From Lachnospiraceae bacterium (lineage in GTDB: Bacteria > Bacillota > Clostridia > Lachnospirales > Lachnospiraceae), in the NCBI GenBank assembly GCA_017473905.1, contig JAFUJA010000020.1, positions 1 to 52,560 on the forward strand: a stretch of DNA of 52,560 bases, in the 5' to 3' direction. Of the stretch, positions 4,303 through 15,129 are shown in pieces. The notes below the pieces were generated by a model. That model was given only the letters and a program-made list of their open reading frames with translations, had not been told where the DNA came from and did no database searches. Each line of letters begins with the position of its first letter. Within the stretch, counting starts at the first letter, position 1. A program made the position numbers and the translations under genes.

Positions 4303-4608
4303 ATGAATAAAAAATTAAAAAACGATGCAGTAGACCAGCTGTTTGATGCCATTCTCTGCCTTGAAAAAAAAGAGGAATGCTATAATTTCTTTGAAGACTT
4401 GTGTACCATCAATGAATTACTGTCTCTTTCCCAGAGACTTGATGTTGCCATCATGCTCCGTCAAAAGAAGACATATATGGAAATAGCGGAGAAAACCGGA
4501 GCTTCCACCGCTACTATCAGTCGTGTAAACCGTTCTTTAAACTACGGTTGCGACGGCTATGATTTGATTTTTGAACGCATGGGCGTAGACTCGGAAGCCC
4601 AGGTCTAA
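4303..4608 (+). CDS. YerC/YecD-type TrpR-related DNA-binding protein
   Basis: The 101-residue protein has the hallmark TrpR-superfamily core: a helical N-terminus ending in LLSLSQRLDVAIMLRQKKTY, then a helix-turn-helix (AEKTGASTATISRVNRSL, about residues 66-83). It matches the YerC/YecD group of Firmicutes, relatives of the E. coli Trp repressor whose ligand is not known. The ATG at 4303 is preceded by CGGAGGA. The gene faces the end of the aromatic amino acid operon, and its TAA overlaps by two bases the TAG of the convergent LytM-like gene, with no terminator between. A 27-bp dyad overlaps its promoter, so it may control itself. A link to aromatic amino acids is suggested only by location and family. 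Confidence 0.85.
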   Translation: MNKKLKNDAVDQLFDAILCLEKKEECYNFFEDLCTINELLSLSQRLDVAIMLRQKKTYMEIAEKTGASTATISRVNRSLNYGCDGYDLIFERMGVDSEAQV

Positions 4609-5262: not shown

Positions 5263-5712
5263 TTATACCCCCTGCTTTGTTTCGGTACTGTGTTTTTTTA
5301 ATGCCTGAATTGCCATAAGATATCCGTCAAATCCGTATCCGTAAAAAGTAGCAATGCAAGCTTGTCTTACATAAGATATTTTACGGAATTCTTCACGGCT
5401 GTCAACATCTGAAAGATGAACTTCCACCGTAGGAATGGACACTGCTTTTACCGCATCCAAAATTGCCACACTGGTATGCGTATATGCCGCAGGATTTATT
5501 ACAATGCCGTCATATACATCATATGCTTCCTGAATGGCATCTACAATTGCCCCTTCATGGTTAGACTGGAAACAATCCACATCCACACCTTCCTTTTCAC
5601 CACACTCTTTGCAAAAAGACACAAGGGCATTATAATCTCTGTTTCCGTAAATATGCTTTTCACGGATTCCCAGCATATTTAAATTCGGTCCGTTGATTAC
5701 GAGAATTTTCAT
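5263..5712 (-). CDS. aroQ: 3-dehydroquinate dehydratase, type II
   Basis: AroQ removes water from 3-dehydroquinate to give 3-dehydroshikimate in the shikimate pathway. The 149-residue product has the family length and motifs: NGPNLNMLGIRE with the catalytic Tyr region (IYGNRDY), the NHEGAIVD segment, NPAAYTHTSVAI, and VHLSDVDSREEFR (substrate and partner-subunit loops). I chose ATG 5712 because TAAAAAGGAG sits 8 nt before it; a GTG nine bases further upstream overlaps the Shine-Dalgarno itself. It lies next to last in the aro operon, 15 nt after aroEK, with the LytM-like gene coupled directly behind. Confidence 0.95.
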   Translation of the reverse strand: MKILVINGPNLNMLGIREKHIYGNRDYNALVSFCKECGEKEGVDVDCFQSNHEGAIVDAIQEAYDVYDGIVINPAAYTHTSVAILDAVKAVSIPTVEVHLSDVDSREEFRKISYVRQACIATFYGYGFDGYLMAIQALKKHSTETKQGV

Positions 5713-5727
5713 AGGTTTCACTCCTTT

Positions 5728-6993
5728 TTAAAAGAATCTCTGAATTTCTTCCACCGCACGATAAGGATTTCCTTCGGATACCTTAATCCGTAAGTCTGCC
5801 ATAGACTCATAGATAGGCTTTCTCACCTCATACAGGCGTTTCAAAGCCTCGTCTGAGGCTGATAACGGTCTTCCGCTTCTCTCTAAAAGCTCCATATCCC
5901 GTTGCAAAAATACAATGATACCGTTCTGGTGCATCGCCTGACGGTTTTCTTTCCGTAAAATGCTTCCGCCGCCGGTTGCAATTACAACACCGGTTTTTTT
6001 ACATACTTCTGCTACAACTTCTGCTTCTTTTATTCGAAAAGCTTCTTCTCCGTAGGTTGTGATATAATCACCTGCTTTCATTTCATGGATACGTAAAAAT
6101 TCCTCATCCGTATCAATAAATGCAAAGCCAAGCCGTTTCGCCAATTCACTGCCCACAGTAGACTTTCCGCATCCCGGCATACCCACCAGACAAATATTAC
6201 TTACACTTTTACGAAGAATCTCAATTGTTTTTTCCATGTCGGAAATATCATTATCATCCGGCTCCATATTTTTATGAAAAAACAATGCTTCCGCATACCA
6301 TGCCTGGGCAACAAGCATGGGAAGTCCGTCCGTATATTTCAGACCCTTTTCTTCTGCCTGTAAAAGAAGTGCCGTACGCATGGGATTGTATACAACATCC
6401 ACAACAGACTCTGCTTTCGGAAAATCATTCAGGGAAACGGGTGAAGCACCGTTATTCGGATACATTCCCACAGGAGTGGTGTTAACAATAATTTCTACAT
6501 CTTTGAACTCATCCTTATCCTGATAAGAAATCACACGGCACCCGGGGAACCCAAGTCTTGTTTCCTCAGGTCTTCTGCTCAGAAGAATAATCTCCCCTGC
6601 TTCTTCTTTTTGCAATGCGTATACTGCGGTTTTTGCAGTTCCTCCGTTTCCGAGAATTACCGCTTTTTTCCCTTTAAAAGAAATTCCGGCTCTTCCTGTC
6701 ATGTACAGAAATCCAAGATAATCCGTATTGTAAGCATAAAGACCATCATCTTCTTTTACAATGGTGTTTACACTGCCGATACGGCTGCATACCTCATCCA
6801 TATGACAGTAATCCATAACCGCCTGCTTGTAGGGAATGGTAACATTCAAGCCTTCAAAATCCGCTGCTTTCATAAAAGAATCCAGCTCTTCCCGGGGAAT
6901 TTCCCTCAGGCAATAGGAATCATTTCCGAAACATTGATGAATTTTAACGGAGAAGCTGTGCCCCAGCTTCTCCCCGATCAATCCGTATTCCAC
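5728..6993 (-). CDS. Bifunctional shikimate dehydrogenase/shikimate kinase (AroE-AroK fusion)
   Basis: Two consecutive pathway enzymes are fused in one 421-residue chain. Residues 1 to about 255 are AroE: GEKLGHSFSV (shikimate binding), NVTIPYK with the catalytic Lys, NTDYLGF with the catalytic Asp, and the NADP loop GNGGTAKTA. After a linker (EPDDNDISDMEKTI), the rest is shikimate kinase: Walker A GMPGCGKST, DTDEEF, ATGGGSILR and the lid RSGRPL. The product converts 3-dehydroshikimate to shikimate 3-phosphate. The start is non-ATG: GTG 6993 lies 7 nt from AAGGA and is preferred to TTG 6996, which is only 4 nt away. The gene sits between pheA and aroQ. Confidence 0.93.
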   Translation of the reverse strand: MEYGLIGEKLGHSFSVKIHQCFGNDSYCLREIPREELDSFMKAADFEGLNVTIPYKQAVMDYCHMDEVCSRIGSVNTIVKEDDGLYAYNTDYLGFLYMTGRAGISFKGKKAVILGNGGTAKTAVYALQKEEAGEIILLSRRPEETRLGFPGCRVISYQDKDEFKDVEIIVNTTPVGMYPNNGASPVSLNDFPKAESVVDVVYNPMRTALLLQAEEKGLKYTDGLPMLVAQAWYAEALFFHKNMEPDDNDISDMEKTIEILRKSVSNICLVGMPGCGKSTVGSELAKRLGFAFIDTDEEFLRIHEMKAGDYITTYGEEAFRIKEAEVVAEVCKKTGVVIATGGGSILRKENRQAMHQNGIIVFLQRDMELLERSGRPLSASDEALKRLYEVRKPIYESMADLRIKVSEGNPYRAVEEIQRFF

Positions 6994-7010
6994 CAAATTG
7001 TCCTTCTTTC

Positions 7011-8147
7011 TTAATTCTCGTTATAGCATCCCATAAATTCAAAGCTCTCCATACCGTTTTCCAACTGGGAGAACAGGTTGAATACCGCCTTATCATAAAC
7101 GGATACATCAAGATCAAAATAGAACATGAATTCAAAATCACGATTGGGAATCGGACGGCTTTCCAATTTGGTTAAGTTAATTCCCAAAGCAGTAAATTTT
7201 GCCATTAATTCGTACAAAGCACCGGGCTTATGAGGAAGTGTCAGCATAAGACTGATTTTTTTAGCGCCGGGATAAATTTCAAGTTTCTTTGAAATACATA
7301 CGAATTTGGTGTAGTTATTTTCATTATTCTGAAGATTTTCCTCAACAATGGAAAGATTGTAAAGTTCTGCACACTGGCGTGAAGAAATTGCTGCCACTCC
7401 GGGGTCATTGCTTTCAGCAACTTTTTTTGCAGCAATTGCTGTATTTTCACAGGGAATTACTTCCACATTCATACTCTTTAATAACTCGCTGCACTGTCCG
7501 ATTGCCTGTTCATGGGAATAAACAACCTTAATATCTTCCTTTTTGGTTCCGGGTTTTGCAAGAAGAAAATGATTAATTTTAATCTTAATACTGTTAACGA
7601 TATAAAAATGATGCTTATTCATCAAATCATAGTTTTCGATTACAGAACCGTGAAGGCTGTTTTCAATGGGAAGAATACCATACTGGCAAAGTCCTTTTTC
7701 CACTGCTGCAATAACGCCCTCGAAATTGTTAAAGTATAAAATGGAAGGACGGGCAAACATTTTTTCACATGCAATTGTGGAATTTGCGCCTTCAATACCC
7801 TGACATGCAACGGTTGCACTCTTAGGGAATAATTCAGGAGTTTCTTTCAATGCCTTCTCTATTTTTTCGCCGATTACAGAATGTTTTTTCATACACTCTG
7901 CCTGATGTGCTCTGGAAAGGTCAAACAGGGTTGTGTATAAAATCTTCACATATCCCGCCATTTCATCATCCAGCTCCTGTGTAAGTCTGTTTACAATTTC
8001 ACGTTCTCTGGCTGAATTTAAAATAGGCAGTCCCTGCGCCTCTTTTGCTCTTGCCACCTCTGTTGCAATGTCCAGTCTTTTCTTGAACAGTTCCACAAGC
8101 TGGTCATCAATTCCATCAATCTGAACTCTTAAATCTTTTAAATCCAT
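7011..8147 (-). CDS. pheA: Bifunctional chorismate mutase/prephenate dehydratase (P-protein)
   Basis: The 378-residue protein makes phenylpyruvate from chorismate by way of prephenate. It has an N-terminal chorismate mutase helix bundle (DLRVQIDGIDDQLVELFKKR, residues 4-23, to about 90), a prephenate dehydratase domain (about 105-285, with GIEGANS, LPIENSLHGSV and the Thr-bearing NYTKF motif), and a C-terminal ACT domain (about 297-378) whose LESRPIP matches the Phe-binding ESRP motif. Feedback inhibition by phenylalanine is therefore likely. ATG 8147 is used because GAGGAG lies 7 nt upstream; the in-frame extension to 8162 lacks a site. The gene follows aroC by 34 nt. Confidence 0.95.
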   Translation of the reverse strand: MDLKDLRVQIDGIDDQLVELFKKRLDIATEVARAKEAQGLPILNSAREREIVNRLTQELDDEMAGYVKILYTTLFDLSRAHQAECMKKHSVIGEKIEKALKETPELFPKSATVACQGIEGANSTIACEKMFARPSILYFNNFEGVIAAVEKGLCQYGILPIENSLHGSVIENYDLMNKHHFYIVNSIKIKINHFLLAKPGTKKEDIKVVYSHEQAIGQCSELLKSMNVEVIPCENTAIAAKKVAESNDPGVAAISSRQCAELYNLSIVEENLQNNENNYTKFVCISKKLEIYPGAKKISLMLTLPHKPGALYELMAKFTALGINLTKLESRPIPNRDFEFMFYFDLDVSVYDKAVFNLFSQLENGMESFEFMGCYNEN

Positions 8148-8181
8148 TTTTAGTCTCCTCATTCGATAATTTTATGTAAAC

Positions 8182-9252
8182 TTATTTTTGTAACAATAAA
8201 TCATATAATACAACTGCCGCTGCAGCTTCCACACAAGGAAGTGCCCGGGGAACAATGCAGGGATCATGTCTACCCTGTATTTGAAGCATGGCATCTTTTT
8301 TACCATAAAAATCCACGGTGCTCTGCTCTTTATAAATTGACGGAGTAGGTTTAAAAGCCACCCTGAACACTACAGGCATTCCATTGGTAATTCCACCCTG
8401 AATTCCACCGGAATGATTGGTCGCCGTTACTACGGAATCCCCCTGCATGGTAAAAGAATCATTTACTTCACTGCCTTTTTTCAGACAACCTTCAAATCCC
8501 ATACCAAACTCAATACCCTTTACGGCAGGAATTCCAAAAACCACATGGGACATACAGCTTTCCACGTTATCATAAATAGGTTCGCCAACTCCACAGGGAA
8601 GGCCGGTTACCGCAATTTCAACAATACCGCCCACGGAATCGCCTTCTTCCGCAATCTGCTCCATATAGGCTACCATCTGTTTTCCAACTTCTTCACGCAA
8701 AACCGGAAAGGCACCATTCTCATGTTTCTTTTTAGTTATGTCAACCAAATCAAAGGGTTCCTCTTTTACATCACCGATAGCCAGAATATGAGAAAAGATA
8801 TCAATTCCTTCTTCCTCAAGCAACTGCATGCACACAGCTCCGGCAAAACATAAAGGTAACGTAAGTCTGCCCGAAAACTGTCCGCCGCCGCTTCTGTCCT
8901 GAAAACCATCGTATTTTATCCATGCAGTGTAATCTGCGTGGGAAGGTCTTAAAAGTGCCTCTGTCTTTGAATAATCCGAAGAACGGGTATTGGCATTTCT
9001 GAAAATCGCACAAAGCGGGGCCCCACAGGTCATGCCGTCTTTTAAACCGCTTAAAATTTCGGGAGTATCTGCTTCCTTTCTGGCTGTGGAGTATTTATTC
9101 TTTCCACCGGCACGACGGTCTAAAAAGGACTGCACCTTTTCCAAATCTACTTTTTTACCTGCCGGCAGGCCGTCAATTACAACACCCAATCCTGCCGAAT
9201 GAGACTGTCCGAAAATCTGCACTTTTATTTTTGTTCCAAACTGAGATGCCAT
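8182..9252 (-). CDS. aroC: Chorismate synthase
   Basis: AroC eliminates phosphate from EPSP to give chorismate, using reduced FMN. The 356-residue sequence shows family signatures GQSHSAGLGVVIDGLPAG (residues 15-32, with the conserved His), LDRRAGGKNKYST, RPSHADYTAW, the basic/Gly-rich DRSGGGQFSGR, and GIQGGITNGMP. The last motif is ATNHSGGIQGG, where many homologues have SNHAGGI. Length is normal. The ATG at 9252 follows GAAAGGATGTATA. The gene lies between aroA (20 nt upstream) and pheA. Confidence 0.96.
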   Translation of the reverse strand: MASQFGTKIKVQIFGQSHSAGLGVVIDGLPAGKKVDLEKVQSFLDRRAGGKNKYSTARKEADTPEILSGLKDGMTCGAPLCAIFRNANTRSSDYSKTEALLRPSHADYTAWIKYDGFQDRSGGGQFSGRLTLPLCFAGAVCMQLLEEEGIDIFSHILAIGDVKEEPFDLVDITKKKHENGAFPVLREEVGKQMVAYMEQIAEEGDSVGGIVEIAVTGLPCGVGEPIYDNVESCMSHVVFGIPAVKGIEFGMGFEGCLKKGSEVNDSFTMQGDSVVTATNHSGGIQGGITNGMPVVFRVAFKPTPSIYKEQSTVDFYGKKDAMLQIQGRHDPCIVPRALPCVEAAAAVVLYDLLLQK

Positions 9253-9272: not shown

Positions 9273-10577
9273 CTACATTTCAAACGCAATATCAACCTGT
9301 TCAAATATTCTTCTGTAATCTTCGAAAAAGCCGGGGTAGGATTTATCTACCGCTTCCACTCCGATGATTGTTATTTCACAACCGCTGCCTACTGCTGCAG
9401 TTGCTGCAGACATTACGATTCTGTGGTCTTTATATCCGTCCACACATCCGCCGTGTAAAAAGCCGGACGCTGAAGATTCCCTGCCCTTTACAATCAATGT
9501 GGTATGACCGTCCGCTTCCTCTCTGTCAATCATTTCACATCCAAGATTCCTTAAAAGTTCCTGCATGGAAACAATTCTATCGCTTTCCTTGATACGAAGG
9601 CGTTCCGCTTTATGAAACTCTGTATCGCCTGTTGCATGCGCTGCCACTACGCATAAAACGGGAACCAAATCGGGAATTTGTGAAACATCCAGTACAATTC
9701 CCTGTAACGGACCGGGGAGTACTTCTATCCCCTCTTCCGTAATGTGCACATCCGCACCAAATTTCTTCAAAATATCTACAACGGCTCTGTCTCCCTGCAA
9801 ATCGTCCTGATTTAACCCGGTTAACATAACGCCTTCTCCCAAAGCTCCCATACAAAGGAAGAATGCCGCATTCGACCAGTCTCCCGGTGCATGAATAATT
9901 CCGGGTGAGCAATAGGTCTGATTTCCGGGAACAAAATAACCATAATCCGTTTCTTCAACATGGATACCAAATTCTTTTAAAACGGAAATGGTAATATCGA
10001 TATATCCTTTTGACTCCAGCTTACTGGTTAACATAATCTTACTATCATCCTCTAAAAGAGGAAGCGCAAACAAAAGCCCGGTAATATACTGTGAGGACAC
10101 ATTTCCAGAAATGGAAAATGTACCGGCTTTTAACCTTCCCTGTACATACATAGGAAGATAATTGCCACTGGTTTCCACACCGTTTTCTTTTAAAGCTTTA
10201 CAAATCGGTGCAAAGGGACGATTGGGCAACCTCCCCTCTCCTTCCATGCAAAAAGCCGGGAACAGTGCCGACATAACAGGAAGCATAAAACGGGCTGTGG
10301 AACCGCTTTCCCTGCACTTTAATGTAGGTTTACATAATTCAGAATCTTTCCGCATAGGTACAATTCTGATTCCGCCTTTGATTCGCATAGCGGATGCTCC
10401 GATTGCGTTTAAACAATCCATTGTTGCAAGCATATCTTCAGAAAGAATATCCGTATATAACGTAGTTACCTCTCCGGAAAGCGCTGCTGCTATGAGATAA
10501 CGATGCACATACGACTTTGAAGCAATCGCCTGCATTTTTTCATATTTTCTTTTACCGGGACTGATTTTTGCTTTCAT
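9273..10577 (-). CDS. aroA: 3-phosphoshikimate 1-carboxyvinyltransferase (EPSP synthase)
   Basis: AroA joins shikimate 3-phosphate and PEP to give EPSP. The 434-residue protein has the conserved N-terminal SKS motif (IASKSYVHRYLIAAAL), the RESGSTARFMLPVMSAL segment, GRLPNRPF, a QYITGLLFALPLL-like stretch, and the C-terminal ERLRIKESDRI and DHRIVMSAA motifs. The ASKSYVHR loop is a slight variant of the usual SKSxxxR. ATG 10577 has AGGGGG 7 nt upstream and begins 2 nt after the aroB stop, suggesting translational coupling. Confidence 0.96.
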   Translation of the reverse strand: MKAKISPGKRKYEKMQAIASKSYVHRYLIAAALSGEVTTLYTDILSEDMLATMDCLNAIGASAMRIKGGIRIVPMRKDSELCKPTLKCRESGSTARFMLPVMSALFPAFCMEGEGRLPNRPFAPICKALKENGVETSGNYLPMYVQGRLKAGTFSISGNVSSQYITGLLFALPLLEDDSKIMLTSKLESKGYIDITISVLKEFGIHVEETDYGYFVPGNQTYCSPGIIHAPGDWSNAAFFLCMGALGEGVMLTGLNQDDLQGDRAVVDILKKFGADVHITEEGIEVLPGPLQGIVLDVSQIPDLVPVLCVVAAHATGDTEFHKAERLRIKESDRIVSMQELLRNLGCEMIDREEADGHTTLIVKGRESSASGFLHGGCVDGYKDHRIVMSAATAAVGSGCEITIIGVEAVDKSYPGFFEDYRRIFEQVDIAFEM

Positions 10578-10579
10578 CC

Positions 10580-11623
10580 CTATACCCCCTTGTTTACATA
10601 ACTATTCCATTCTTCCATGGTCATGGGGACAATTTTTACCTCTCCGATGCATTCAGGTAAAATAACACTGATGGTACTTCCTGCCCGCTTTTTATCAGAA
10701 ACAGCCTGCAATGCCAAATCATTTGCAGAGTATTCGCATGAGACGGGAAGGTTATACTGCTCCAATACCTTTAACAACCGGTTTGTCATGGTTTTGTCTT
10801 CCAACTCAGATTCCATTGCTCTGGTAACAATCACCATGCCGATTGCAACTGCACTTCCGTGAGGAATTTCGTAGTTACTGAGCTTTTCAACTGCATGCCC
10901 TACGGTATGTCCGAAATTAAGGATTTTTCGTAAGCCTTTGTCAAATTCGTCTTCTCCGACAACTTCCGCTTTGATCTCCACACATCTTTTACAAATCCTG
11001 TTAATATCAAAATCGCCTTTTTCAAAGGTTTCAAAAAGTTCCTTATCTTTTATCATACCATATTTTACCGCTTCTGCCATCCCATCGGCAAAAACTTCTT
11101 TGGGTAAAGTTGAAAATGTATCCGTATCACAAAGAACAAGAACAGGCTGATGGAAAGAGCCGACAAGATTTTTACCGGTCTTTAAATCCACCGCAGTTTT
11201 ACCGCCTACGGAAGAATCAATTGCTGCCAAAAAAGTGGTAGGCAACTGAACAAATTCCATTCCTCTAAGGTAGGTTGCCGCAACAAATCCGGTCAAATCA
11301 CCGGTCACGCCGCCTCCCAGTGCAACGAACAAATCGCTGCCGGAAATACCCTTTTGGGCACAGAATTCATATAACTCCGCCGCCGTGGTCAGATTTTTTG
11401 ATTTCTCACCATTCGGAAAAACATAAGAAAAAACATCAAAGCCGTATTCTTTTAATTCTTTTTCGGTTTTCTCTCCATATAATCCATAAACGATATCATC
11501 GCTGACAAGAACCACTTTACAGGGTTTTCGTACTGCAGCAATTCTTTCACCGTAATGAATTCCGTTACCGATAATTACCTGATAATCCTTTGTTCCCGTT
11601 TTAACTTCTACGATGTACTCCAT
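10580..11623 (-). CDS. aroB: 3-dehydroquinate synthase
   Basis: AroB cyclises DAHP to 3-dehydroquinate using NAD and a divalent metal. The 347-residue protein has the usual length and the motifs FPNGEKSKNL, GGGVTGDLTGFVAATYLRG (NAD-binding glycine-rich turn), PTTFLAAIDSSVGGKTAVD, and the metal ligands in LRKILNFGHTVGHAVE and IPHGSAVAIGM. The ATG lies 4 nt after the tyrA stop. It belongs to the aro operon. Confidence 0.96.
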   Translation of the reverse strand: MEYIVEVKTGTKDYQVIIGNGIHYGERIAAVRKPCKVVLVSDDIVYGLYGEKTEKELKEYGFDVFSYVFPNGEKSKNLTTAAELYEFCAQKGISGSDLFVALGGGVTGDLTGFVAATYLRGMEFVQLPTTFLAAIDSSVGGKTAVDLKTGKNLVGSFHQPVLVLCDTDTFSTLPKEVFADGMAEAVKYGMIKDKELFETFEKGDFDINRICKRCVEIKAEVVGEDEFDKGLRKILNFGHTVGHAVEKLSNYEIPHGSAVAIGMVIVTRAMESELEDKTMTNRLLKVLEQYNLPVSCEYSANDLALQAVSDKKRAGSTISVILPECIGEVKIVPMTMEEWNSYVNKGV

Positions 11624-11627
11624 AGTA

Positions 11628-12497
11628 TTATGCCTGCCTTTTTTTCTGTTCTGCTTCTTTCTTATTGTCCGTATCTTTACAGATTCTTCCTTCTTTTAAA
11701 AGACTTCGAAGCCCTTCTCTGTCCTCTTCCGCCAAGGCTTTTCTGTATTTATGTAATTCATCAATAAAAATATCAAGTTCGGACAAGAGAGATTCCTGAT
11801 TTAAAAGGAACAGTTCCGTCCACATGTCTTCATTTAAATAAGCAACTCTGGTTAAATCCTTAAAACTTCCTGCCGAGAAACCATAACGTTTTTTGCAGGT
11901 AGGACTCTTGATATATGCGCTGGATACAAGATGAGCCATCTGTGAGGTATAAGCAATAACTGCATCATGTTCTTCATAATCAGATTCTTTGATACTGCCA
12001 AATCCTAAGGAAAGAAAGAACTCTTTCGCAGTTTGAAAAGCCTCTTCGTTGGTATGCTCATCTCTGCACAAAATCATGGTTGCGCCTTCAAACAAACCAT
12101 AAAAGGAATTGGAAAAGCCTGACTTTTCAATACCGGCCATGGGATGACCGCCAATAAAATGAACCCCTTTTAGTTTACATAACTCTGACAAGTTTTTACA
12201 TACCGATGTTTTTACACCGGCGCAATCCACAACAATGGTGCCTTTTTTTATGAAGGAAAGATTTTCTTCCATATAGGAAATAATTCCTCCCGGATACAGT
12301 GCCAGAAGAATCACATCACATGCTCCAATCTGTTCCTTCGTCAGAGGACCTGCAACACAACCTTCTTCCATGGCTGCGGCAAGCACTTCTTCATTGGCAT
12401 CAGCTGCATAAACATGATACTGTGTTTTTTCTTTTACGGTTTTCGCAAGACAACCTCCGATTAAGCCAAGTCCCACAAGACCGATATTTTTTAACAT
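11628..12497 (-). CDS. tyrA: Prephenate dehydrogenase
   Basis: TyrA oxidatively decarboxylates prephenate to 4-hydroxyphenylpyruvate, the tyrosine branch. The 289-residue protein opens with the NAD-binding GLVGLGLIGGCLAK and has the family's IGGHPMAGIEKSG motif with the catalytic His; the helical dimerisation part follows (AYTSQMAHLVSSA). No ACT domain is present, so feedback must come from elsewhere. ATG 12497 overlaps the aroF stop by seven bases (ATGTTAA), and the longer upstream reading lies inside aroF. AAGGA is 12 nt away, so coupling to aroF translation is likely. The C-terminal 20 residues are very basic and polar. Confidence 0.93.
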   Translation of the reverse strand: MLKNIGLVGLGLIGGCLAKTVKEKTQYHVYAADANEEVLAAAMEEGCVAGPLTKEQIGACDVILLALYPGGIISYMEENLSFIKKGTIVVDCAGVKTSVCKNLSELCKLKGVHFIGGHPMAGIEKSGFSNSFYGLFEGATMILCRDEHTNEEAFQTAKEFFLSLGFGSIKESDYEEHDAVIAYTSQMAHLVSSAYIKSPTCKKRYGFSAGSFKDLTRVAYLNEDMWTELFLLNQESLLSELDIFIDELHKYRKALAEEDREGLRSLLKEGRICKDTDNKKEAEQKKRQA

Positions 12498-13501
12498 AAT
12501 GAAAGAATATCCTTTCTGATTAACTGAACACCTTTGTTGATTTCGCGGAATGCATCGGGAGTAATGGACTGCTGTCCGTCGCACCATGCTTTTGCAGGGT
12601 CGTTGTGAACTTCAATAATCAAACCATCGGCACCTGCTGCGGTTGATGCATAGCACATGGATTTTACATATCTGGAATATCCGGTGGAATGGGAAGGGTC
12701 AATTACAATGGGAAGATGTGTTCTTTCCTTCAAAACAGGTACCGCTGAAATATCAAGAGTATTTCTGGTTGCGGTTTCAAAGGTTCTGATACCTCTTTCG
12801 CAAAGAATAATATCCTCATTTCCGCCTGCCATAATGTATTCAGCACTCATCAGGAATTCCTGAATGGTATTTGCAAGACCTCTTTTTAAAAGAATCGGTT
12901 TTTTGATTTTACCCAGTTCTTTTAAAAGCTGGAAATTCTGCATGTTACGTGCACCTACCTGAATTACATCCACATCATCAAACAAAGGAAGCTGTGAAAG
13001 ATCCATAATTTCGGTAACAATGGGAAGACCGGTTTCTTTCTTTGCCAATAATAAAAGCTCAATACCGTCACCGCCAAGACCCTGGAAAGCATAAGGTGAA
13101 GTTCTGGGTTTAAATGCACCGCCTCGAAGCATGGTTGCACCGGCTTCTTTTACAGACTTGGCAATTCCAACAATCTGCTCTTCCGTTTCAACGGAACAAG
13201 GTCCCGCAATCATTGCAAACGCACCTGCACCGATTTTAGCTCCTTCCACATCAATCTGAGTGTCTAAAGGATGGAATTTACGGTTTGCGGCCTTATAAGG
13301 CTCCTGAATACGTTTTACGTTCTCTACAATATCCATTGCAGAAATCATATCAATATCTACTGTAGAAGTATCACCTACCAGACCTAAAATGGTAGAATGC
13401 TGACCTTCTGATATGTGTACATCAAGTTTCATTTCCTTCAGCCAATTCTGAAGATGTTCGTACTGTGCCTGGTCGGGGTTTTGTTTTAATACAATAATCA
13501 T
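12491..13501 (-). CDS. aroF: 3-deoxy-7-phosphoheptulonate (DAHP) synthase with N-terminal regulatory domain
   Basis: This enzyme condenses PEP and erythrose-4-phosphate, the entry step of the shikimate pathway. The 336-residue protein has an N-terminal ferredoxin-like domain (about 1-70, MIIVLKQNPDQAQ...), as in Thermotoga-type enzymes where it mediates feedback by aromatic acids. The KDO8P/DAHP synthase barrel follows, with IAGPCSVE, GGAFKPRTSPYAFQG, QVGARNMQNF, LLKRG and IVIDPSHSTG. It is the first enzyme gene of the operon, about 425 nt behind the transcript start, after a Phe/Tyr attenuator and two GC-rich repeat units. AGAAAGAAGGATAAAAAA precedes the ATG. The symbol aroF is used by convention. 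Confidence 0.95.
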   Translation of the reverse strand: MIIVLKQNPDQAQYEHLQNWLKEMKLDVHISEGQHSTILGLVGDTSTVDIDMISAMDIVENVKRIQEPYKAANRKFHPLDTQIDVEGAKIGAGAFAMIAGPCSVETEEQIVGIAKSVKEAGATMLRGGAFKPRTSPYAFQGLGGDGIELLLLAKKETGLPIVTEIMDLSQLPLFDDVDVIQVGARNMQNFQLLKELGKIKKPILLKRGLANTIQEFLMSAEYIMAGGNEDIILCERGIRTFETATRNTLDISAVPVLKERTHLPIVIDPSHSTGYSRYVKSMCYASTAAGADGLIIEVHNDPAKAWCDGQQSITPDAFREINKGVQLIRKDILSLC

Positions 13502-13752
13502 TTTTTTATCCTTCTTTCTTTATGATTTCATGATAAGTTATGAAACGCGCGCGACCGCTTGCATTTTCATACAAGCTCGAGATTTGCTTCGCAATCTCTC
13601 GCTGATTAGCAGTCGGCAAATGGTCGCCCGCGTAAACGCGGTTCCTTGCAACTCCTGCATCAGCTATGAGATTTGCTTCGCAATCTCCCGCTGATAGCAG
13701 AAATTGCAACCGCATAAATGCGGCGACCGCTTGCCTCGTTGCCATAACAAAA
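13502..13752 (-). repeat. Two tandem GC-rich hairpin repeat units in the aro leader
   Basis: Between the attenuator terminator and aroF lie two related units. Each starts with the same 20-base palindromic block (plus-strand 13579-13598 and 13668-13687, GAGATTTGCTTCGCAATCTC), continues with CGCTGAT-(T)AGCAG, and carries a small hairpin of the form CCGC-G/A-TAAA-C/T-GCGG (about 13629-13642 and 13709-13723). GCGACCGCTTGC occurs at both ends. A 79-codon open frame covers the region, but the two repeat copies fall in different frames, which argues against coding. Base composition is clearly more GC-rich than the neighbours. Confidence 0.7.
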
Positions 13753-13782
13753 AACCTGCGTTTCTCTGTTGAAACGCAGGTT
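13753..13782 (-). terminator. Attenuator terminator of the aro operon
   Basis: In the minus-strand RNA a perfect 12-bp stem (AACCUGCGUUUC / GAAACGCAGGUU, loop AACAGA) is followed by a run of U. It lies just behind the leader peptide gene and well before aroF, so it would stop transcription before the operon. The loop and 3' arm include ACAGAGAAAC, which is complementary over 10 bases to a segment inside the leader peptide gene (13834-13825); that pairing would prevent the terminator stem. Confidence 0.9.
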
Positions 13783-13813
13783 AAAACACATTTTTAAAAC
13801 TTACATACCCTAC

Positions 13814-13900
13814 TTAATTGCTCGACAGAGAAACCTTATTAAATTGCTTAATAAAGTAAAAGTAAAAGTATGCAAAATAAAAGTTCTTAAGCATATTCAT
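13814..13900 (-). CDS. Phe/Tyr-rich leader peptide of the aromatic amino acid operon
   Basis: A 28-codon ORF (ATG 13900, stop TAA 13816-13814) follows GGGAAAGGAG at a good distance and begins about 27 nt after the predicted transcript start. Its product reads MNMLKNFYFAYFYFYF and continues IKQFNKVSLSSN. Between residues 7 and 20 there are six Phe and four Tyr, and no Trp. The last third of the ORF contains GUUUCUCUGU, which can pair with the terminator loop and 3' arm. This is the classical design of a ribosome-mediated attenuator. Stalling at Phe or Tyr codons would free the segment for antitermination; complete translation would cover it and let the terminator form. The specificity fits an operon with pheA and tyrA but no trp genes. 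Confidence 0.9.
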   Translation of the reverse strand: MNMLKNFYFAYFYFYFIKQFNKVSLSSN

Positions 13901-13933
13901 TTTGGTTTCTCCTTTCCCAAAAACTCTGAACCC

Positions 13934-13961
13934 ATTATAGCACTTGAACTTTGGATGTCAA
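13934..13961 (-). promoter_or_regulatory. Consensus promoter of the aro operon
   Basis: The minus strand reads TTGACA (13961-13956), a 16-bp spacer, then TATAAT (13939-13934). Both boxes match the sigma-A consensus perfectly. The expected start near 13927 gives a leader of about 425 nt before aroF that includes the leader peptide, attenuator and repeat units. A strong promoter with downstream attenuation is a typical arrangement. Confidence 0.9.
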
Positions 13962-14006
13962 TATTTTTTTTAAATTTTCCTTTAAAATCAAACTTTGGGG
14001 CACATT

Positions 14007-15074
14007 TTAATCGTCTAATTTCATATCTCCGTCCTTGATTAATTTCATTTTACGCATCAATTCCGCAATCCCGTAAGAAAGCAATCCCGGCAAAATAAAG
14101 CAAAGAAGAAGAATCTCAAGAATAATGAGTGCCGGTTCAAGCCCTGTTTCCAGCATGGTATTATACGCATTAATCGGGCCTACAAGGCCTGAAGTTCCCA
14201 TTCCGGAACCTGTCGCATTGTTTTGAAAATGAAATAACATGGTAGATATCGGTCCCATGATTGCACTGGTTATAATTGCAGGTAACCAGATGATGGGTTT
14301 TTTCACAATATTGGGCATCTGTAACATACTGGTACCGATTCCCTGGGCAAACAAACCGTTCCACTTATTTTCTTTGAAACTTGCAACCGCAAACCCAACC
14401 ATATTTGCACAACATCCTACCGTTGCCGCACCGGCTGCAATTCCGGACAGATTTAAAATAACACCAAGAGCTGCAGAACTGATTGGAAGGGTTAATGCCA
14501 TTCCCATAACCACGGACACAATAATTCCCATAAGGAAGGGCGCCTGTTCCGTTCCAAAACCAATCAATTCTCCTATCTTATTCATAAAATTACTAATTGG
14601 CGTCCCAAGGAATAAGCCCACGGCACCACCGGGCAAAATACACAAAAACGGCGTTACCAAAATATCCATTTTAGTCTTTCCTGCAACAAATCTGCCGATA
14701 TAAATTCCGGTAATTGCCGCCAGAAAAGCTCCCAAAGGTTCCCCCGGTGCCGAAATCACAAATTGTCCGTTTACCATAATGGTTCCCGCAAGAATTGCTT
14801 TTGCATAAGCTCCGATAAGGCCGGCAACCGCAGCAGACAACGTGACCAGAGGTGCCGCTTTTAACTTCATTGCAACACCGCAGCCAATTCCTGCCCCGGT
14901 CAGTAACTGGGCAATTTTACCCATGTAAAATATATAATCTCCGAATGTACCGGGAATCCAACTTCCAATCTGGGCCACAATTGTACCGATAATCAGCGTT
15001 GCAAATAATCCCTGTGCCATACCTGATAAGCCATCAATAAAAAATTCCTGAAGAAATTCCAAAATTTTTTTCAT
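14007..15074 (-). CDS. PTS EIIC-like membrane permease (PTS_EIIC_2 type)
   Basis: The 355-residue protein is almost entirely hydrophobic with about nine to ten membrane segments and glycine-rich loops (GAGIGCGVAMKLKAAP, GGAVGLFLGTP, PHGAG-like motifs absent). It resembles the PTS_EIIC_2 family of Firmicute transporters that occur without their own IIA or IIB domains; neither is encoded nearby. The substrate is unknown. ATG 15074 is preferred over the ATG at 15095 because GAAAGG lies 9 nt before it. A weak promoter (TTGAAT, 17 bp, TATTTT) precedes it. No terminator is evident behind it, so some read-through into the aro promoter region is possible. Confidence 0.7.
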   Translation of the reverse strand: MKKILEFLQEFFIDGLSGMAQGLFATLIIGTIVAQIGSWIPGTFGDYIFYMGKIAQLLTGAGIGCGVAMKLKAAPLVTLSAAVAGLIGAYAKAILAGTIMVNGQFVISAPGEPLGAFLAAITGIYIGRFVAGKTKMDILVTPFLCILPGGAVGLFLGTPISNFMNKIGELIGFGTEQAPFLMGIIVSVVMGMALTLPISSAALGVILNLSGIAAGAATVGCCANMVGFAVASFKENKWNGLFAQGIGTSMLQMPNIVKKPIIWLPAIITSAIMGPISTMLFHFQNNATGSGMGTSGLVGPINAYNTMLETGLEPALIILEILLLCFILPGLLSYGIAELMRKMKLIKDGDMKLDD

Positions 15075-15129
15075 ATATTCATGCCTTTCCTTCATAAAAC
15101 CTGTTTTTTATAAAACTGTTCTTTCTGAA

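Follow-up and report, generated by a model that had tools for sequence, protein, structure and literature searches.

A probable Phe/Tyr leader-peptide attenuator before a Lachnospiraceae shikimate-Phe-Tyr operon and its apparent relatives in Clostridia

Background

The control of amino-acid genes in Clostridia is usually described in terms of T-boxes. In the genome of a Lachnospiraceae bacterium (assembly GCA_017473905.1), an operon for shikimate, phenylalanine and tyrosine synthesis is preceded by a promoter, a small open reading frame rich in Phe and Tyr codons, and a terminator. Do these parts form a single regulatory device and, if so, what does it sense? We addressed this question in the 52,560 nucleotides of contig JAFUJA010000020.1 (positions 1 to 52,560, hereafter "the window") and in related genomes. 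An earlier note on this DNA had read the region as a Phe/Tyr transcription attenuator, a reading which is well supported by sequence. We consider it very probable that the leader is a ribosome-mediated transcription attenuator sensing charged tRNA-Phe and tRNA-Tyr.

Results

Parts of the leader element

The features of the locus are collected in Table 1. The consensus promoter, the leader ORF of 28 codons (six Phe, four Tyr, no Trp) and the 12-bp terminator described in the earlier note are correct to the base, and all the Phe and Tyr residues fall within residues 7-20. The segment GTTTCTCTGT of the leader ORF (13834-13825), which we call region 2, is the exact reverse complement of ACAGAGAAAC (13769-13760), that is, of five bases of the terminator loop followed by five bases of the 3' arm. 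These ten bases had been taken for a complete antiterminator. Their perfect complementarity is exact, but they are probably only the core of a longer pairing: RNAduplex adds GAG (13823-13821) facing TTC, and GTAGG (13813-13809) facing CCTGC of the 5' arm.

Table 1. Features of the leader element, the operon and its neighbours in the window
Feature	Positions	Strand	Remarks
Sigma-70 promoter TTGACA-16-TATAAT, TG before the -10	13934..13961	-	12/12 matches, read directly and scanned; -35 starts at 13961, -10 ends at 13934, 16-nt spacer
Shine-Dalgarno AAAGGAG, 8 nt before ATG	13909..13915	-	Read directly
Leader ORF, 28 codons, MNMLKNFYFAYFYFYFIKQFNKVSLSSN	13814..13900	-	ATG at 13900, TAA at 13816-13814; Phe/Tyr run kept in 6/6 genus loci
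Sensor run, codons 7-16, FYFAYFYFYF (putative stall site)	13853..13882	-	Order of residues varies, composition does not
Antiterminator segment (region 2) GTTTCTCTGT, inside leader ORF	13825..13834	-	Invariant in 6/6 genus loci
Second antiterminator segment GTAGG, 3' of the stop codon; predicted partner CCTGC (13780-13776) of the 5' arm	13809..13813	-	RNAduplex; nascent fold
Intrinsic terminator AACCTGCGTTTC-AACAGA-GAAACGCAGGTT with U-tract TTTTGTT	13746..13782	-	Hairpin 13782-13753, 12 bp, 6-nt loop, U-tract to 13746; 2 pairs with both sides changed in genus
aroF, DAHP synthase	12491..13501	-	TIGR01361 above cut-off
tyrA, prephenate dehydrogenase	11628..12497	-	14 hits, all below curated cut-offs
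aroB, 3-dehydroquinate synthase	10580..11623	-	TIGR01357 above cut-off
aroA, EPSP synthase	9273..10577	-	TIGR01356 above cut-off
aroC, chorismate synthase	8182..9252	-	TIGR00033 above cut-off
pheA, chorismate mutase/prephenate dehydratase	7011..8162	-	Best hits below curated cut-offs
aroE-aroK fusion, shikimate dehydrogenase and shikimate kinase	5728..6996	-	Best hits below curated cut-offs
aroQ, type II dehydroquinase	5263..5721	-	TIGR01088 above cut-off
TrpR-family DNA-binding protein gene	4303-4608	+	PF01371, E=2.5e-32; convergent with the aro operon end
PTS EIIC gene, upstream of the element	14010-15095		Same direction as the operon

The gene order 3' of the leader is aroF-tyrA-aroB-aroA-aroC-pheA-aroEK-aroQ, after which comes an M23-peptidase gene, and the gaps between these genes do not exceed 20 nt (gene calls by NCBIfam models with their curated cut-offs). 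The terminator and aroF are separated by a spacer of about 244 nt which contains repeats. Between 13551 and 13734 a 28-nt sequence is directly repeated (13579, 13668), and its palindromic 20-nt core has just these two occurrences in the window; a 12-nt repeat, GCGACCGCTTGC, is also present. Finally, a "protector" pairing between regions 1 and 2, of GAGAAACC (13911-13904) with GGTTTCTC (13835-13828), is not claimed here, because, as judged by eye, the full match is confined to the window among the genus loci.

The layout of the parts is not due to chance

Taken singly, the parts of the element are not rare in this DNA. A scan found one terminator-like site, against a mean of 0.7 in shuffled sequences. 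A bare run of six F/Y-type triplets was rejected as a genome-wide sign of a leader, since overall it was no more frequent than the reversed-pattern control: the own genome gave 16 matches, the control 32.

We describe the combination by one fixed rule: an ORF of at most 50 codons, with at least six F, Y or W in 14 residues and a terminator 0-90 nt after the stop codon, within 450 nt of aroF. This layout is found in 101 of 186 aroF upstream regions, in none of their 186 reverse complements and in none of 930 block shuffles, with kinship uncorrected and one contig counted twice in the 186 (L006/L037). The figure of 101 is a lower one, as the rule misses leaders recognised by eye or with other rules in L012 (by its length), L052, L058, L103 and L107, while a few picks are possibly wrong ORFs; the rule finds no leader in the other 85 of the 186 regions. 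An earlier version of the rule, which also required a Shine-Dalgarno site, gave 78 of 128 regions, none of 128 reverse complements and none of 1280 dinucleotide shuffles. Weak matches (L020-L025) and a locus with 139 bases upstream (L048) were left out of the locus set, and loci with less than 400 bases upstream (L054, L064, L100, L167, L185) were dropped before the count of 186. Since the layout occurs in 101 of 186 regions and in neither control, the combination of the parts is not chance.

These counts bear on two other explanations. According to one of them, the hairpin is simply the terminator of the upstream PTS gene, next to an unrelated small peptide gene, and the pairing is a coincidence. 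The PTS EIIC gene does point in the direction of the operon, and single elements are common by chance, but a promoter matching the consensus at 12 of 12 positions stands between that gene and the terminator, the element is kept in L002, L003, L005 and L006 despite a different upstream coding DNA (by eye), and the layout is found in 0 of 930 shuffles; we regard this explanation as almost inconceivable. The other one invokes premature termination by a DNA- or RNA-binding protein, such as the product of the TrpR-family gene which adjoins the operon (Table 1), the leader ORF being incidental. HisR of Firmicutes is a member of the TrpR family (PMC9413887), and such a protein could also add a second layer of control. 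As the sole explanation, protein control would leave unexplained the conserved Phe/Tyr ORF, the complementarity of region 2 and their joint presence in 101 of 186 regions, and is extremely unlikely.

Conservation within the genus

This AroF (E<=1e-50) is present in 6 of the 31 genomes of the genus; the other 25 are without it at the same threshold. Close relatives keeping the terminator without a Phe/Tyr ORF, which would speak against an attenuator, were sought and none was found: leader ORF, complementary segment and terminator are kept in all six aroF loci. Both promoter hexamers and their spacing are identical in the six, each of which has an SD-like site. The retention of Phe/Tyr codons, which the earlier note proposed to look for, is observed as well. 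The run takes the forms FYFAYFYFYF, FFFAYFYFYF, FFFTYFYFYF and FAYFYFYFYF, with an F/Y swap at codon 8 and a longer run in L002, while its character stays constant; codon 20, Phe in the window, is Val or Ile in two relatives. Upstream of the promoter, the DNA of L002, L003, L005 and L006 codes otherwise than that of the window (by eye). Within the genus, the stop codon and aroF are 97 to 312 nt apart.

Compensatory changes had been expected in both hairpins and were found in one of them. The genus terminator is 98.6% paired and has two double-changed pairs at its base (UA to GC in one, CG to UA in the other), although with six sequences its covariation exceeds that of shuffles only modestly (118/500 for double-changed pairs, 18/500 for the covariation score). 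The antiterminator is 96.6% paired in the genus and changes through wobble only, save for the outermost pair, missing in four loci; it shows no double compensatory change within the genus or within a second lineage, and its shuffle control (500/500 in both) is uninformative. While the base of the terminator changes in compensation, GGTTTCTCTGTCG is invariant at every base across the genus, synonymous positions included. This behaviour is expected if one stretch has to serve both hairpins.

The second lineage (19 rows) repeats this split: the terminator is 100% paired with four double-changed pairs, a number reached by 0 of 500 shuffles, and the antiterminator is 99.6% paired.

Pairing and folding of the leader RNA

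We compared the pairing of region 2 with the terminator apex to that obtained after shuffling synonymous codons and spacer. The authentic pairing is stronger at p<=0.05 in 50 of 83 loci and at p<=0.01 in 33 of 83, and all six genus loci have p<=0.017, while 33 of 83 failed to beat the shuffles at 0.05; synonymous codons were drawn uniformly, base composition is only partly controlled, kinship is uncorrected and L037 repeats L006. Measured back from the end of the stop codon, the start of region 2 lies at a median distance of 14 nt (range -1 to 63) in the 50 loci that pass at p<=0.05. The 5' part of the antiterminator is predicted to be accessible to a ribosome that has arrived at the stop codon and not to one in the sensor run.

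Folding was computed for 12 chosen loci, with a ribosome stalled at codon 16 (A site) and masking a further 12 nt, these footprint sizes being assumptions. As long as the last 6 nt of the 3' arm are missing, the RNA behind this ribosome folds into the antiterminator in 12 of 12 loci (-19.4 kcal/mol in the window). When the RNA is masked to 9 nt past the stop codon, the terminator forms in 12 of 12. On the finished transcript with a stalled ribosome, 11 of the 12 loci have the terminator as their minimum-energy fold. Therefore antitermination would have to be kinetic, the antiterminator forming first, and in this model the mechanism would depend on the order of folding.

The position of a TTTTGCTGC-type motif, identified by pattern match only, differs among lineages: it can occupy any of the three frames of the leader ORF, or follow the stop codon. 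Frame 0 is seen in L065, L067 and L085, frame 1 in 10 loci and frame 2 in L072 and L136, while in 12 loci the motif begins after the first bases of the stop codon. The frame-0 count is to be read with care, as 10 of its 13 entries come from one lineage in which the motif precedes the aromatic run and is not region 2; moreover, not all the loci with the motif are significant in the shuffle test (for example L009 and L058). Because the frame varies in this way, selection seems to act on the RNA.

The same observations bear on the idea that the leader encodes an arrest peptide, whose nascent chain, perhaps with a small molecule, would stall the ribosome, the aromatic residues acting in the exit tunnel and not as codons. 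Some lineages do share a recognisable peptide core (FFSWGYFYFSAGYFCC and similar). But within the genus F and Y replace each other and the runs differ in length, and it is the TTTTGCTGC-type motif that encodes the shared FCC end, a motif found elsewhere in other frames or past the stop codon. We hold an arrest peptide to be very unlikely.

Which amino acids would be sensed

The sensor codons match the products of the operon, which contains tyrA and pheA. The earlier note had pointed to this agreement and to the lack of trp genes in the operon. The trpE-type family PF00425 has no match and trpD none above the cut-off in any of the six genus genomes with this locus (71-97% complete). Weak matches to the trpD model in five of them are below the cut-off and are read as another family. 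A genus without a trpE-type enzyme fits a leader without Trp.

A similar relationship appears over the order. Of the 18 genomes whose leader contains Trp, 15 have a PF00425 match, against 12 of the 31 whose leader lacks it (Fisher p=0.003, kinship uncorrected although many of the rows are kin); a genome outside the 184 listed matches was counted as being without the family. The family also covers PabB and isochorismate synthases. The exceptions are G055, G080 and G140, with Trp and no PF00425, and the 12 genomes with PF00425 and no Trp; two of the leader ORFs without Trp, those of L118 and L178, are likely wrong picks. In G055, a DAHP synthase gene (L019) is preceded by a tandem pair of aromatic leader ORFs, with one terminator for each; these leaders contain Trp, in a genome without a PF00425 match.

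T-boxes (RF00230) are another way to sense tRNA. There is no T-box match in the window at the gathering score and none upstream of this aroF, and the core motif occurs in 0 of 78 leader-positive regions (first set). L010 has an exact T-box core in place of the leader layout, L062 and L110 have a core with two changes, and L177 one with at most one change. In the own genome there are six T-box matches, three of them above the cut-off, and among the six are matches before pheS and trpB (neighbouring genes were named from translations, the identity of trpB being confirmed separately). Rfam confirms the pheS match, in whose specifier region UUC can be read by eye; the match before trpB is below the cut-off and absent at the gathering score in an Rfam recheck. 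The T-box match L032 lies upstream of an apparent helix-turn-helix/AMP-ligase fusion protein.

Wider relatives

Besides the genus, the layout is found in 53 of 75 named loci (from the best 80 of at least 594 stretches) and in 41 of 104 other loci; of the matches listed in the scan of the order, the higher-ranked ones were used and roughly 48 lower-ranked ones left out. It is found in none of 27 more distant loci of the order (L192-L218). The leaders of Clostridia hold up to 11 aromatic residues in 14. Examples of cultured and named carriers include Oscillibacter valericigenes (L053), Angelakisella massiliensis (L047), Bittarella massiliensis (L095) and Ruminococcus sp. zg-924 (L109).

In L066, L087, L092 and L107 (4 of 85 loci with a promoter-like pair) the leader ATG follows a -10-like box by 6-7 nt, and these leader peptides look leaderless. 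L009 is a fifth such case by rule, with a poor promoter and a doubtful start. In bins assigned to Victivallales, Kiritimatiellae and Lentisphaerae (L042, L086, L088), a similar AroF is found together with a terminator and an ORF that resembles an aromatic leader, pointing either to gene transfer or to mis-binned contigs.

Discussion

Proposed mechanism

At the sequence level, all the parts, their conservation, the non-random complementarity and the gene content were observed. From these we infer that the leader is translated, where the ribosome stalls and what it covers, that the hairpins compete kinetically, and that Phe and Tyr are what the element responds to, as follows. When both amino acids are plentiful, the ribosome would pass the FYFAYFYFYF codons and reach the stop codon, where its footprint would extend over GTTTCTCTGT and probably over GTAGG just past the stop. 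With GTTTCTCTGT covered, the terminator would form and transcription would end before aroF. A shortage of Phe or Tyr would stall the ribosome in codons 7-16 and leave free the segment about 20 nt downstream. Region 2 could then pair with the emerging loop and 3' arm of the terminator and, together with GTAGG, also with the 5' arm, and with this antiterminator formed, RNA polymerase would read through into the whole shikimate-Phe-Tyr operon. Besides the preference of the finished transcript for the terminator, a further point against this reading is that a stall at codon 20 (Phe) would partly cover region 2, because that codon is so close to it.

Relation to known systems

Enterobacterial pheA and pheST are controlled by leader-peptide attenuators with a Phe-rich leader ORF and alternative antiterminator and terminator hairpins. 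The present element resembles them in these features and in the control of Phe genes, but differs by its mixed Phe and Tyr run, by the whole shikimate-Phe-Tyr operon that it precedes, and by an antiterminator core placed on the loop and 3' arm. It is like T-box leaders in that uncharged tRNA would be sensed to control transcription, whereas T-boxes bind tRNA directly and have no translated leader.

The contrast drawn in the earlier note, between enterobacteria using leader peptides and Firmicutes relying mostly on T-boxes or RNA-binding proteins, is too strong. PMC2965389 and PMC9413887 describe histidine leader-peptide attenuators before hisS/hisZ and his operons in Bacilli, Peptostreptococcaceae, Lutispora and Erysipelotrichales. 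Those leaders share with ours leader-peptide attenuation with terminator and antiterminator hairpins, and differ in having histidine codons and his genes (his operons, hisS/hisZ) as described there. The hisZ and lysQ leaders are also mentioned in PMC4833913, and a leucine-rich attenuator peptide precedes ilv-leu in S. aureus (PMC5794164). Another close case concerns the same gene: PMC8632094 proposes, before aroF of Acholeplasma, the motif uORFC-13-1, which combines a promoter, an RBS and a terminator with a predicted uORF holding at least one Phe; its 24 representatives are described as confined to Acholeplasma and environmental sequences. The present leader has all these parts upstream of aroF as well. 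As compared by description only, the leaders reported here differ in belonging to Clostridia, in having up to 11 aromatics in 14 and in their defined antiterminator.

A search of Rfam with positions 13500-14000 returned no amino-acid leader family even at E<=10, and nine weak matches at that threshold, all far below gathering scores. We recognised no description of a Phe/Tyr leader attenuator in Clostridia in the open-access literature searched, subscription papers being outside the scope. The mechanistic kind is already known; what is new is its breadth and evolutionary behaviour in Clostridia.

Significance for the Clostridia

We think it likely that the element belongs to a large family of attenuators with aromatic leader peptides, apparently uncatalogued so far, which would be the main control of AroF, the entry step of the shikimate pathway, in much of the class Clostridia (records titled Lachnospiraceae, Oscillospiraceae, Ruminococcus and relatives, with a few Kiritimatiellae, Lentisphaerae and Victivallales bins). 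In this family the antiterminator motif would have been kept as RNA while the leader frame slid over it, the codon run would have been retuned between Phe/Tyr and Phe/Tyr/Trp as Trp synthesis was lost or kept, and a few members would be leaderless; within one cell it would work beside T-boxes that sense the same tRNAs.

In many Clostridia, what is apparently classical ribosome-mediated attenuation would govern the first step of aromatic biosynthesis. With an attenuator at aroF and T-box matches at pheS and trpB, one cell would therefore read tRNA charging in two ways. The family may offer a simple code, the aromatic codons present telling what each species senses, and a natural experiment in which an RNA switch keeps its pairing while the coding frame shifts.
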